Assembly: GCA_028281945.1 (NCBI GenBank)
Contig: JANQIW010000158.1
Span: 1-64,000 of the forward strand
DNA length: 64,000 bases
Direction of reading: 5' to 3'
From: Prochloraceae cyanobacterium PL24a_bin.78
Lineage (GTDB): Bacteria; Cyanobacteriota; Cyanobacteriia; Cyanobacteriales; JANQIW01
Position numbers and translations under genes: made by a program. Position 1 is the first letter of the stretch; each line of letters starts with the position of its first letter. The notes beneath the pieces were generated by a model that worked only from the letters and a program-made list of their open reading frames with translations, did no database searches and was not told the origin of the DNA. Positions 17,788 through 22,975 of the stretch are shown in pieces.

Positions 17788-18282
17788 ATGTCAGCAAATG
17801 TAGCTATTGCTCTTGGTAGCAATCTTGGTGAATCTCAAACTATTCTAGCAGATGCTATTACCACTTTAAGTCAAACAAATGAAATAACTGTTACTACTTA
17901 TTCTAGTTGGTATCAAACTAAACCCATTGGCCCACCACAACCAGATTATATTAATGCTTGTGCTTTACTGAAAGTAGAATTAGAACCTCACCAATTATTA
18001 AAAACTCTTTTAGATATAGAGCAAGAATTTGGTCGTAAACGCATTCAACATTGGGGACCTAGAACCTTAGATTTAGATTTAATATTATACGAAGACTTGA
18101 TTTTAGATACTCCAGATCTAATAATTCCTCATCCAAGAATGAAAGAAAGAGGTTTTGTCTTAATGCCTTTAGCAGAAATTGCCCCTAATTGGATCGAACC
18201 TATTACAAATCAAACCATATCTTTTCTTTTAGAGAAAGTAGACTGTACAGGAATAAAAAAGATTTCTCCTGAAAATTTCTAA
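17788..18282 (+). CDS. folK: 2-amino-4-hydroxy-6-hydroxymethyldihydropteridine pyrophosphokinase
   Basis: FolK transfers pyrophosphate from ATP to 6-hydroxymethyl-7,8-dihydropterin, the step before dihydropteroate synthase in folate synthesis. The 164 residues show the full signature: IALGSNLG at the N-terminus, YINACALL, and WGPRTLDLDLILYED followed by IPHPRMKERGFVL, where the Asp pair binds Mg2+. The gene opens a same-strand run of four genes, the other three being Nudix, reductase and dihydropteroate-synthase-like, which suggests a pterin theme. Confidence 0.95.
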   Translation: MSANVAIALGSNLGESQTILADAITTLSQTNEITVTTYSSWYQTKPIGPPQPDYINACALLKVELEPHQLLKTLLDIEQEFGRKRIQHWGPRTLDLDLILYEDLILDTPDLIIPHPRMKERGFVLMPLAEIAPNWIEPITNQTISFLLEKVDCTGIKKISPENF

Positions 18283-18357: not shown

Positions 18358-18843
18358 GTGACCCAAAATATTGCTCCAATCAAAGAATTACCCATCAAAA
18401 AACAGTTTCCCTTAACTACCGTAGGGGCACTAGTCGTCAATTCCACCGCCAAAATCTTAATCGTCAAAACCACCAAATGGAAAGGAACATGGGGTGTGCC
18501 CGGAGGTAAGGTAGAATGGGGAGAAACCCTAGAACAAGCCCTTTTAAGAGAATTTAAGGAAGAAGTTGGCTTAGATTTAACTCAAGTGCGTTTCGCCTTG
18601 TTACAAGAAGCAGTATTAGACTCCCAATTTATATATGAAGCTCATTTTGTGATGGTTAATTATTATGCTTTTTCAGATTCAGAAATAATTATTCCTAATG
18701 AAGAAATAGAAGAATGGGCTTGGGTAACTCCTCAAAAAGCTTTAGATTATCCTCTTAATAGCTATACTCAAATATTAATTGAAGATTATATCCAAAAGCA
18801 AATAGAGAAAATATATGGGAGTGAAATAAAAGCAAATGCTTAA
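18358..18843 (+). CDS. Nudix hydrolase
   Basis: This 161-residue hydrolase has a perfect Nudix box (Gly50, Glu56, Arg64-Glu65, Glu68-Glu69, Gly71), so it should cleave a nucleoside diphosphate linked to another group with Mg2+. The start is a GTG at 18358, 75 bases after folK. Its 3' end overlaps the next gene by eight bases, which implies coupled expression with the reductase. Dihydroneopterin triphosphate pyrophosphatase, another folate step, belongs to this superfamily, so a pterin substrate is a reasonable but unproven guess. The protein also resembles sugar-nucleotide and CTP-type Nudix enzymes. Confidence 0.88.
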   Translation: MTQNIAPIKELPIKKQFPLTTVGALVVNSTAKILIVKTTKWKGTWGVPGGKVEWGETLEQALLREFKEEVGLDLTQVRFALLQEAVLDSQFIYEAHFVMVNYYAFSDSEIIIPNEEIEEWAWVTPQKALDYPLNSYTQILIEDYIQKQIEKIYGSEIKANA

Positions 18844-19555
18844 AAAAGCCTTGGTAACTGGTGCAGCAAAAGGAATTGGTAAAGCCATTGCCTTAGATTT
18901 AGCTAGTAAAGGATTTGATGTGGCATTTCATTACCTTAATAGTGAAGAAGCTGCTCACACAGCCTGCCAAGAAGCTGCTAAATATAATATTAAAGCAATT
19001 TCTCTAAAAGCGGATCTTACTAATCCTGATGAGGCAAAATCTTTAGTAGAAAAAACCGCTAATCAATTAGGAGGTTTATCTGTTATTGTCAATAATGTAG
19101 GTAATTATTTAGGTAAAGTGACTAGTGAAGTATCGGTAGAAGAATGGCATTCTACCCTTGATTCTAATCTTAATGCTACTTTCTATATCACTCAAACCGC
19201 AATTCCCCATCTTAAGGCTGGAGGCTGGGGGCGAATAGTTAATTTTGCTTGTGCTAATGCCCATCTAGTCAAGGCTCGTAAGACTAATACTGTTTATATT
19301 ATTGCTAAAACTGGGATTATTATTTATACTAAATCTTTGGCTCAAGAATTAATTAAGGATAAAATTACTGCTAATATAATTGCTCCCGGAATTGTAGAAA
19401 ATTCCTTTGATGTGGAAGAAATGATTCCTAAATTACCAACTAAAAGGGCTGCAACTTTAGAAGAAATGGTTAATGCTGTGTGGTTTTTCATTAATCCTGC
19501 TTCTGATTATATAACAGGACAAGTATTAGAAGTGTCTGGGGGCTGGAATTTATAA
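18836..19555 (+). CDS. short-chain dehydrogenase, pteridine-reductase (PTR1/FolM)-like
   Basis: This 239-residue NAD(P)H-dependent reductase has the Rossmann glycine motif TGAAKGIG (residues 8-15). It is followed by His32-Tyr33 in FHYLNSEEAA, a pattern typical of the pteridine reductase PTR1. The catalytic Tyr154 and Lys158 (YIIAK) are present. The usual SDR serine, 13 residues before the Tyr, is Asn141; PTR1 has Asp there. It ends with the family motif GQVLEVSGGW. PTR1 and FolM reduce pterins, and the gene lies between Nudix and dihydropteroate-synthase-like genes, so a pterin substrate is likely. A 3-oxoacyl-ACP reductase-like role cannot be excluded. Confidence 0.8.
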   Translation: MLKKALVTGAAKGIGKAIALDLASKGFDVAFHYLNSEEAAHTACQEAAKYNIKAISLKADLTNPDEAKSLVEKTANQLGGLSVIVNNVGNYLGKVTSEVSVEEWHSTLDSNLNATFYITQTAIPHLKAGGWGRIVNFACANAHLVKARKTNTVYIIAKTGIIIYTKSLAQELIKDKITANIIAPGIVENSFDVEEMIPKLPTKRAATLEEMVNAVWFFINPASDYITGQVLEVSGGWNL

Positions 19556-19603: not shown

Positions 19604-20494
19604 ATGCTTAATCTTGAAAATCTATGTGAACTTTATGACAAATATAATGATGCTTTTAAAGCAAAAGTAGAAGAGTTTACCATTGGTAATAAACATTTTC
19701 AGTTTAATTCCCAACCAGCTATTTTAGGGGTAATTAATCTTTCCAGTGACTCTTGGTATCGAGAAAGTGTGTGTTTAACTGTAGAGCAAGCCATACGTCG
19801 TGGTTTAACTTTGAATGCTCAAGGTGCGGATTTTGTTGATATCGGGGCAGAGTCTACCTTAGAATATGCTGAAAGAGTTGAAGATGTTAAGCAGAAAAGC
19901 AAGATTATGCCTGTGCTTGAATCTTTAAGTAAACAAGGGGTTTTAACTTCTATTGAGACTTATTATCCTAATGTTGCGAAAGAATGTTTACAGGCTGGAG
20001 CGAATATTATTAATTTAACTGGCACGGAAGAAACAGAAGATTTTTACCGGGTTATTTCTGAATTTGATGCGGGGGTAATTATTTGTTATGTTCAAGGAAA
20101 AAATGTTCGAGAAGTAGGTGATTTCTCTTTTGGAGAGGATCCCGTCAATTTAATGTATGATTATTTTGCCAGACAAGTAGAATTAGCCACCTCCCTTGGA
20201 GTGAAAAAAATCTTTATTGATGCGGGTTTAGGGTTTTATTATAAGAATCTTCAAGATAGTTCTCAGAGAATTAACTATCAAATGAAAACTTTTTTAAATT
20301 CTTTTCGACTTAGGAAATTAGGATTTCCTGTCTGTCATGCTCTTCCTCATGCTTTTGAATGTTTTGGCGAAGAAGTGAGAACTGCTGAGTCATTTTTTGC
20401 AGTTCTGGCATTATTAGGAAAAACAGATTTATTGAGAACTCATGAAGTTCCTAAAATTAAAGCTGTATTAGATACTCTTTCCCTATATCAATAA
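19604..20494 (+). CDS. degenerate dihydropteroate synthase homologue
   Basis: The 296-residue protein has the TIM-barrel layout of dihydropteroate synthase (FolP), but key motifs are altered. The pterin/diphosphate loop, normally NxTPDSFxDG, reads NLSSDSWYRES (residues 45-55), and GAEST (81-85) replaces GGESTRPG. The internal DAGLGFYYKN is close to the family motif, but the Ser-Arg-Lys loop is lost (PVCHALPHAFE). The C-terminal RTHEV motif remains. Cyanobacteria normally have a separate, canonical FolP, so this is probably a specialised enzyme acting on a pterin or related substrate. A GGAGA ribosome site precedes the ATG. It follows the reductase by 48 bases. Confidence 0.75.
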   Translation: MLNLENLCELYDKYNDAFKAKVEEFTIGNKHFQFNSQPAILGVINLSSDSWYRESVCLTVEQAIRRGLTLNAQGADFVDIGAESTLEYAERVEDVKQKSKIMPVLESLSKQGVLTSIETYYPNVAKECLQAGANIINLTGTEETEDFYRVISEFDAGVIICYVQGKNVREVGDFSFGEDPVNLMYDYFARQVELATSLGVKKIFIDAGLGFYYKNLQDSSQRINYQMKTFLNSFRLRKLGFPVCHALPHAFECFGEEVRTAESFFAVLALLGKTDLLRTHEVPKIKAVLDTLSLYQ

Positions 20495-20528: not shown

Positions 20529-21953
20529 CTATGAGTTTATAGCTCCTTCCAATTTATTTCTATCCAAATCTGGAATATTTTTTGGAGCATAAATATCTAG
20601 TAAAGATTTATCAAACTCAAGATCTGGTATTTGAGCAAGGATTCCTAAAGGTTCATTATTTTTAAGGCGATTTTCTTTGCACTTAATTAAAGCCATCAAA
20701 GTTTCTCGCTTTGCGCCAACACACTCAAATGGTTTTTCAGTCTTGGGATCGAATAAACGTCTCCAAGTATCTTCAAGTTGAGCAACTCTAAATAAATCTT
20801 CACCTACCATTTCTATCGCAAAGCGGCGATTAGTTACGGCTTCAATTAAGGCATATGAAAAAGCACATTTTGGGCATCGACAACACCATTGACTGTCTCC
20901 CTCTGCCCATTGAGCTTCATTACATGAAGTTATTTGTTTGAGTAAATTTTGATTCCAAATTGATAAATGATAGACAGTACTAATGGAGTAAATTTCTTCA
21001 CAAATACTAATATATTTAAATGGTAAACCTTTTCTTTCTAGGAAATCATTAAAACGTTTTATATAAGCACTGCCTTTAGCACTTTGATGATTGACACTAC
21101 GCCCTGAATATGTGGTATTTGATTCATTAGAACTTCGATCGTTTGCCATAACTAGGAATCGATGTCCTTGATCAGCAGCAATTATCATCATAAGAAATAG
21201 GGCATTAGTAATGGTTGGATCGTTACGTACCCCTTGATAATCAAAATATTCGGCTGGATCTTCTTTTGGATGTGCCAGTATTTCCCAGAGATGAGAGTGA
21301 TTTTTCATGGTATTGAATACAGGGAATTTTTGCAGCCAATTATGGCCTAAGATTCCTCCTGCATTATGTAAAGTGAAAGTTTCAAATGGTAGTTTAGCTC
21401 TTTTCATCCACTCAAATGCAAAAGTGCTTTCTTTTCCGCCACCAACTGCCAGAAGATAACTATCATTAACAGGTGGAATAGAATTATTCTCTTCGTCGAT
21501 TGGGATGTGGTTTTCAGCAAATTCTATTCGAGGCAAACTCTGCCAATCCCATTTTTCTAGATAAAATTTCTGTTGAAGATACCAATAAATATCTTCATTC
21601 CACCATTGAGATTCCCATTCTAAACAACTATACCATCTTACTTTTACCTTCTCTGGAGTACATATCTCACAAAGACGATAGATTTCAGCCATGGCAATTC
21701 CTATTAGAATTACTGAATTAGTTTCTTTTTTAGGTTTAAATTCAGATGGAAAGTCAATAAAATAAAAATGCTGCCAATTATCAACTAAAAAGGGGAATAT
21801 AAGTCGCCCATCTTGCCAGTAAGGTTTGTCTGAATAAATGACTTTACAGGTTGGAGATTTTCCTGTTGCCATATATTGGATTCGGGATTCGTGATATCTG
21901 CTTTTAAATTCTTCTTCTGAGGGAGAGACTTCCTCATTAAAAATTGAAGTCAT
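20529..21953 (-). CDS. PP-loop ATP-dependent enzyme, MurL-like
   Basis: This 474-residue protein contains a PP-loop (AVGGGKES, residues 169-176) and a later Cys cluster WCCRCPKC (356-363) that probably binds a metal. Together with SVNHQSAKGS (286-295) this matches, from memory, the layout of MurL, which activates a carboxyl group with ATP and epimerises the L-Glu of UDP-MurNAc-L-Ala-L-Glu. Cyanobacteria normally use MurI for D-Glu, so the substrate may differ. The first 150 residues have no recognised domain. It is the second gene of a pair with the EgtD-like methyltransferase (20-base gap) and converges on the dihydropteroate-synthase-like gene. Confidence 0.6.
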   Translation of the reverse strand: MTSIFNEEVSPSEEEFKSRYHESRIQYMATGKSPTCKVIYSDKPYWQDGRLIFPFLVDNWQHFYFIDFPSEFKPKKETNSVILIGIAMAEIYRLCEICTPEKVKVRWYSCLEWESQWWNEDIYWYLQQKFYLEKWDWQSLPRIEFAENHIPIDEENNSIPPVNDSYLLAVGGGKESTFAFEWMKRAKLPFETFTLHNAGGILGHNWLQKFPVFNTMKNHSHLWEILAHPKEDPAEYFDYQGVRNDPTITNALFLMMIIAADQGHRFLVMANDRSSNESNTTYSGRSVNHQSAKGSAYIKRFNDFLERKGLPFKYISICEEIYSISTVYHLSIWNQNLLKQITSCNEAQWAEGDSQWCCRCPKCAFSYALIEAVTNRRFAIEMVGEDLFRVAQLEDTWRRLFDPKTEKPFECVGAKRETLMALIKCKENRLKNNEPLGILAQIPDLEFDKSLLDIYAPKNIPDLDRNKLEGAINS

Positions 21954-21973
21954 TTTCTTTAAGATTCCTCATT

Positions 21974-22975
21974 TTATTGCTTTTTACAAAGGTATATTCC
22001 TTCTTCTTGGTTATCTGATTCCCAATAATTTACTACTTTAATTTGATATTGATTCAGTATTTTTTCAATTAAAGAAGTGGTATAACGATAGGAAAAAAAT
22101 AATCCAATGCGATCGCCTTTTTGCCATTGAATGACTTCTCCATCTAAAGAGAAATTCACATCTTTTTCTAACTCAAAATAAGTATTAATTCTTTTGATAT
22201 CTTCATCCTTTTCGTCGGAAACTATTTCAAAATTGATGTTGCCGTCATTCTTTTCGATTCCAGCGTCAAGTAATACTGTTATTAACCAATCTCTTGTTAA
22301 CTCATTATCATATTGAGAGAAGATTGTTTTAATTCCTTCTAAATAATCTTTTCCTGGTGCTAAATTAGCACTAAAAAGTAAGATATCTCCTGTTTCCAAA
22401 AAGTTACTTAAAATCGGCAAAATTTCGTAGGGATAGAAGTTAGGAATCATGCCAAAAAAAGTTATAATTCTAGTTTCTCTGGTATCTTCCTGACTAATTT
22501 GGGAGATTAAATCTTCGGCTTCAAGTAAATCACAAACTGTTGGTTGAATTAGTAAATTAGGAAAAGATTCTCTTACTTTTTGAGCAGAAATAATGGATAA
22601 AGATAAACTTACATCTACTGGATAATAAATAAATTCTCGATGGTTATTCGTCAAGCAAGATAGTAATAATTTATCTTTTCCTCCATCACCACTTCCTAAT
22701 CCTATTAATTGAAAACTGCCATTTTCTTGAAGTATTTCTGATGTTGTTTCAAAGCATTTGTTATAGCTATTAATGCAATTTGGATCATGAATCCAAGGAG
22801 AATATTTCCTATGAAGTTTTAACCATTTTTGACTTTGTTTTACACTGTCATAGTGAAATTTATGATGGATTTTTTTGTTAGTAAAACTTGCTAAATAATC
22901 TCTATATACTCGATGGGGAAATTGACTTGGATGCACCAATACTTTGGCAAAATTATCGTTTTTTGTAGCTGTCAT
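21974..22975 (-). CDS. EgtD-like SAM-dependent methyltransferase
   Basis: This 333-residue methyltransferase belongs to the histidine-N-alpha-methyltransferase (EgtD) family. The SAM motif is GLGSGDGGKD (92-101) followed by YYPVDVS (118-124). An IPNFYP segment (about residue 175) corresponds to the substrate-binding Asn region of EgtD. Near the C-terminus, where EgtD has Glu-x-Ser that grips the histidine amine and imidazole, this protein reads LFFSYRYT, so histidine may not be the substrate; this comparison is by eye. No egtB or egtC is nearby. It is the first gene of a two-gene operon with a MurL-like enzyme, and it is divergent from the LOG-like gene. Confidence 0.72.
   Translation of the reverse strand: MTATKNDNFAKVLVHPSQFPHRVYRDYLASFTNKKIHHKFHYDSVKQSQKWLKLHRKYSPWIHDPNCINSYNKCFETTSEILQENGSFQLIGLGSGDGGKDKLLLSCLTNNHREFIYYPVDVSLSLSIISAQKVRESFPNLLIQPTVCDLLEAEDLISQISQEDTRETRIITFFGMIPNFYPYEILPILSNFLETGDILLFSANLAPGKDYLEGIKTIFSQYDNELTRDWLITVLLDAGIEKNDGNINFEIVSDEKDEDIKRINTYFELEKDVNFSLDGEVIQWQKGDRIGLFFSYRYTTSLIEKILNQYQIKVVNYWESDNQEEGIYLCKKQ

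Follow-up and report, generated by a model that had tools for sequence, protein, structure and literature searches.

MurL combines adenylation, in which ATP is converted to AMP, with a one-way epimerisation (PMC5808125, PMC8788868), and in the histidine methyltransferase EgtD residues Tyr56, Tyr206 and Ser284 grip the substrate carboxylate while Asn166 grips the amine (PMC8593015). Within folate metabolism, mycobacterial FolP2 is a FolP paralog with a non-folate role that fails to complement folP, and folM-like genes cluster with pterin genes (PMC1971073). Relatives of all three systems lie together in a 64,000-nucleotide stretch of DNA (the window; positions 1 to 64,000 of contig JANQIW010000158.1, assembly GCA_028281945.1, from Prochloraceae cyanobacterium PL24a_bin.78). 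At its centre of interest are the gene for a MurL-like PP-loop protein (20529-21953, minus strand, 474 aa) and, 20 bases upstream on the same strand, the gene for an EgtD-like S-adenosylmethionine (SAM)-dependent methyltransferase (21974-22975, minus strand, 333 aa). Judging by family, residues, neighbourhood and co-occurrence, we propose, with the balance about even, that the two genes encode tailoring enzymes of an undescribed cyanobacterial non-folate pterin pathway branching from folate synthesis.

The neighbourhood is what points to pterins. Convergent with the pair in the window is a series of plus-strand genes: folK (6-hydroxymethyl-dihydropterin pyrophosphokinase, HPPK; 17788-18282), which scores over the TIGR01498 cut-off and, with a single PF01288 match, was found nowhere else in the genome; a Nudix hydrolase gene (18358-18843; PF00293, E=7e-24), whose product possibly acts as dihydroneopterin-triphosphate diphosphatase; a gene for a TmpR/FolM-like pteridine/dihydrofolate reductase of the short-chain dehydrogenase/reductase (SDR) type (18836-19555; NF012208, 371 bits against a cut-off of 325); and a gene for a pterin-binding protein resembling dihydropteroate synthase (DHPS; 19604-20494; PF00809, E=1.7e-29), which at 116 bits stays below the TIGR01496 cut-off of 162.6. 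The nudix gene also adjoins the SDR gene in Dolichospermum, Hormoscilla and genome G286. In Dolichospermum/Anabaena the order is glyoxalase, nudix, SDR, DHPS-like, 6-pyruvoyl-tetrahydropterin synthase (PTPS), folK, EgtD-like and folB, so that in the genomes of the Dolichospermum sp. FACHB-1091 genus (G149, G323, G326 and G329) folK and folB flank the EgtD-like gene, with the PTPS, DHPS-like, SDR and nudix genes next to them. The fragmented genome G155 (1110 contigs) has it beside folB, with the DHPS-like set on a separate short contig. In Hormoscilla sp. GUM202 it is the MurL-like gene that lies directly 3' of folK; beyond it, on the opposite strand, follow surE, a methyltransferase gene unrelated to the EgtD-like gene, and the DHPS-like, SDR and nudix genes. 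Six genomes carry the EgtD-like gene, all of them together with the pterin set, and in five of the six it is adjacent to that set.

Co-occurrence was surveyed across 292 genomes of the phylum, plus the further relatives G323, G326, G329 and Hormoscilla. Among the 292, orthologs of the EgtD-like protein (>430 bits, next best 58) and of the DHPS-like protein (>515 bits, next best 93) occur only in the window genome (G000), G149 and G155. SDR orthologs occur in these three and in G286, which has the SDR with the nudix gene and without the DHPS-like gene; MurL-like orthologs occur in the window genome and G149, and among the further relatives in G326, G329 and Hormoscilla. Across the 292 genomes these orthologs are found almost exclusively together. 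For both the MurL-like and the EgtD-like gene, orthologs are 57-73% identical, and the ratio of nonsynonymous to synonymous substitution rates (dN/dS) is about 0.13-0.33, a range that holds against Dolichospermum for the MurL-like, EgtD-like, DHPS-like and SDR genes; the two reading frames of the pair are therefore conserved genes and not chance open reading frames.

The original prediction, made from the letters of the window, had taken the two genes for a functional pair, and its observation of two same-strand reading frames 20 bases apart is correct. Their spacing suggests that they would form one operon; promoter and terminator scans gave counts no higher than in shuffled sequences. As a conserved two-gene unit, the pair does not hold up: the genes are on different contigs in Dolichospermum/Anabaena, G323 has the EgtD-like gene, with no MurL-like ortholog found in this 98% complete genome or in G155, and Hormoscilla has the MurL-like gene, with no EgtD-like ortholog found. 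Because each occurs beside pterin genes without the other, each is tied to the pterin group and not to its partner. A survey of the pair's neighbourhood, which that prediction had suggested, thus finds a shared association, with the pterin genes, in place of an obligate partnership. The families and the missing glutamate discussed below were read correctly from the letters, and a role apart from ergothioneine is supported; the pterin gene group that both genes share had been left unconnected.

In the pathway that we propose, the nudix enzyme, FolB and FolK would supply 6-hydroxymethyl-dihydropterin diphosphate. The DHPS-like paralog would bind this FolK product and join it to a partner other than para-aminobenzoic acid (pABA), one derived from an amino acid, and the SDR would reduce the pterin ring. 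The EgtD-like enzyme may N-methylate, at the alpha-amine, an amino acid building block other than histidine, probably an aromatic or hydrophobic one, and the MurL-like enzyme may activate a carboxylate with ATP as the adenylate before epimerising or otherwise transforming it. The reactions, substrates and order of steps are our conjecture, built on observed family membership, residue changes, neighbourhood and co-occurrence. The full version of the idea, a second folate-like branch that couples hydroxymethyl-pterin to a non-pABA, amino-acid-derived partner and uses an EgtD-like N-methyltransferase and a MurL-like ATP-dependent carboxylate-activating epimerase, yielding a pterin conjugate, cofactor or signalling molecule of a new class, we offer tentatively and at less than even confidence.

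In the alignment the DHPS-like protein retains the Asn, Asp and Arg-x-His motifs and no longer has STRPG and SRK, two motifs of canonical DHPS. In DHPS these two motifs serve the pABA side and provide the pterin lysine. In G149, G155, G323, G326, G329 and Hormoscilla the DHPS-like gene comes in addition to a canonical folP. Canonical folP did not turn up in the window draft, which is 94% complete and where PF00809 matches only the DHPS-like gene and one MetH-sized protein; folP may be missing from the assembly.

Several points weigh against a pterin pathway. In the window genome, given the folP result, a role in folate synthesis is still conceivable for the DHPS-like protein. Since folK and folB have housekeeping functions, some of the neighbouring genes could simply reflect ordinary folate synthesis. 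In Dolichospermum/Anabaena the MurL-like gene shows no linkage to the pterin genes, in G323 it was not found, and Hormoscilla lacks an EgtD-like ortholog. The genomes that share the locus are few and related, and because they share ancestry their co-occurrence does not amount to many independent events. Structure prediction yielded no model of useful quality for either protein: AlphaFold reached a predicted local distance difference test (pLDDT) score of 40 for the MurL-like protein with five sequences and 35 for the EgtD-like protein alone, and a Foldseek search with the low-confidence MurL-like model gave no match at E<=0.001 and TM-scores of about 0.2, and was not used. A literature search, with most subscription journals outside its reach, found no account of the locus.

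The alternative that survives best, though we think it unlikely, is the one first put forward for this DNA. There the substrate of the pair would be a free amino acid or a short peptide with no relation to pterins, and the pterin neighbours would be incidental: the EgtD-like enzyme would make an N-methylated amino acid, and the MurL-like enzyme would activate its carboxylate and epimerise the alpha carbon. Such a role accords with the adenylation and epimerisation described for MurL (PMC5808125, PMC8788868), and other cyanobacterial MurL-like genes sit with ergothioneine-type egtD and egtB genes, suggesting action on EgtD products; yet the EgtD-like gene stays with the pterin genes where the MurL-like gene is elsewhere or absent, and the MurL-like gene does so where the EgtD-like gene is absent. 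It is more doubtful still that both enzymes act directly on the pterin conjugate, for example by methylating a pterin-side amine and activating a pterin carboxylate. Gene neighbourhood and co-occurrence are consistent with this, as is the unrelated methyltransferase adjoining the Hormoscilla DHPS-like gene, as if a common intermediate needed methylation, but the alpha-amino-acid contacts that the EgtD-like protein keeps favour an amino-acid-like substrate.

These contacts were mapped by alignment with cyanobacterial EgtD-family proteins and with the structure of Mycobacterium smegmatis EgtD. Membership of the EgtD family, as had been predicted, is borne out by PF10017 (E=3e-22, over the family cut-off) and by the EgtD equivalog TIGR03438 (E=6e-19), although the latter score, 68 bits, does not reach the cut-off of 291. 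EgtD residues Tyr39, Tyr56, Asn166, Tyr206, Thr213 and Ser284 are kept as Tyr42, Tyr58, Asn179, Tyr222, Thr227 and Ser295, among them the contacts to the alpha-amino acid (Tyr56, Asn166, Tyr206 and Ser284). The histidine pocket differs. Glu282, the glutamate that grips histidine and had been noted as missing, aligns with Phe293, as it does with Phe in five of five aligned orthologs, and Met252 is replaced by Thr265 in the window protein and by Ala in Dolichospermum/Anabaena; the active site is thus not identical to that of EgtD. Substitutions at EgtD positions 282 and 252 shift the enzyme towards tryptophan. Because the backbone contacts are kept while Glu282 and Met252 are changed, the substrate is likely to be an amino acid other than histidine, and the protein is probably a SAM-dependent alpha-amino-acid N-methyltransferase. 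That it is instead a diverged histidine methyltransferase of the ergothioneine pathway is very improbable: family membership speaks for it, and against it stand both pocket substitutions, an identity of 17-27% to the other aligned cyanobacterial EgtD-family proteins, and a neighbourhood in which, in agreement with the original prediction, no egtB was seen by inspection of the gene map around the pair, no genome-wide egtB search having been made. On these grounds histidine EgtD was set aside. The window genome encodes a second PF10017 methyltransferase (L060, 10249-11211, 173 bits), near spermidine-synthase- and agmatinase-like genes; in this protein, too, the Glu282 equivalent seems to be missing (HLLSSYKY).

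The first enzyme was correctly recognised as MurL-related. The MurL model NF041275 matches residues 142-424 with E=1.2e-21, although at 77 bits it remains far below its curated cut-off of 700. The protein carries the PP-loop VGGGKES (residues 170-176) and the Cys cluster SCN (343-345), WCCRCPKC (356-363) and FEC (409-411), the latter common to Xanthomonas sacchari MurL and 18 other family members; across these 20 aligned sequences 18 residues are invariant, including the loop Gly/Ser, His289, Lys293, SCN, WC..C.KC and EC.G...E. By profile the protein is a member of the PP-loop ATP pyrophosphatase superfamily, the family profile matching the solved PP-loop enzyme TtuA (5mko) over the loop region (E=1.8e-6). 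No Pfam family covers it, phmmer against the PDB returned a single chance match (E=0.7), the viral collection held no relative, and the plasmid collection held distant relatives only, Xanthomonas MurL among them. The nucleotide loop reads GGGKES in its subfamily and GGGKDS in most other aligned members, and the protein belongs to a long-stemmed clade of five (support 100/100) that is separate both from the MurLs with a murD-like neighbour gene and from the members found in ergothioneine-type clusters. It is probably an ATP-dependent carboxylate-activating enzyme of its own subfamily.

Despite family similarity and all invariant residues, a peptidoglycan MurL is scarcely credible, because the genome encodes the glutamate racemase MurI (at C138) and the protein forms its own clade, and the low model score, the absence of a neighbouring murD-like gene in the window and a MurL+MurD genome that does lack MurI count against it as well. 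The candidate was set aside, and the suggested uridine diphosphate N-acetylmuramic acid peptides are an unlikely substrate, since the genome has MurI and the protein falls outside the MurL+MurD clade. Elsewhere in the phylum, MurL lies next to a murD-like gene by inspection at L053 (3441-6270), L075 (1294-4067) and L054 (2374-5077); in G172, the genome of L053, MurI was not found, which fits an alternative D-Glu route.

Other MurL-like genes have other company. A different subfamily occurs, in varying combinations in several cyanobacteria, beside DUF427 (PF04248), a radical SAM protein and egtD/egtB-like genes, egtB being assigned by inspection (L048, 9562-14256; L050, 5347-13216; L051, 8214-13375; L052, 6958-11294; L049, 7994-10927). 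These clusters suggest that hercynine or ergothioneine undergoes a further, so far unreported step, and it may be that MurL-like enzymes repeatedly act after EgtD-type methylation, in keeping with the alternative of an N-methylated amino acid. Further MurL-like genes sit in small biosynthetic-looking clusters (L055, 2648-9032; L076, 1126-3715), one with asparagine-synthase-like, isochorismatase and AlaDH/PNT-type genes and one with a gamma-butyrobetaine-hydroxylase-like TauD gene. On two Pseudonocardia plasmids, MurL-like genes annotated as hypothetical (L132, 7791-9191; L133, 7551-8945) each overlap the end of an opposite-strand WD40-repeat gene.

MurL, an ATP-using epimerase described only recently, has a single characterised reaction, and the subfamily described here suggests that this chemistry was recruited to roles beyond the cell wall. 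The EgtD-like enzyme, with its altered side-chain pocket, offers a natural N-methyltransferase for amino acids. If the pterin link is true, bloom-forming Dolichospermum and marine Hormoscilla would make an apparently undescribed, vitamin-like pterin compound, and the small gene set makes this hypothesis directly testable.

Set against the known systems, the MurL-like protein shares with MurL (NF041275) the PP-loop, the Cys signature, the invariant residues and likely carboxylate adenylation, whereas its N-terminal region aligns poorly, its loop has KES for KDS, its score is far under the model cut-off, and it sits in a separate clade and in a host with MurI, with no murD partner. The EgtD-like protein resembles the L-histidine N-alpha-methyltransferase EgtD of Mycobacterium (4pim) in its PF10017 profile and kept contact residues, and departs from it in the two pocket substitutions, a one-residue deletion before Asn166 and the absence of any egtB seen nearby. 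With FolP and FolP2 the DHPS-like protein has in common the Pterin_bind fold and the Asn/Asp and RxH motifs, FolP2 being the precedent for a non-complementing paralog; unlike FolP, it has lost STRPG and SRK, has an extended N-terminus and sits beside canonical folP in six genomes. Finally, the SDR matches the FolM/TmpR-type pteridine reductases in passing the NF012208 cut-off and in clustering with pterin genes, and differs from them in its fixed nudix partner and, in genomes with the locus, its DHPS-like partner.
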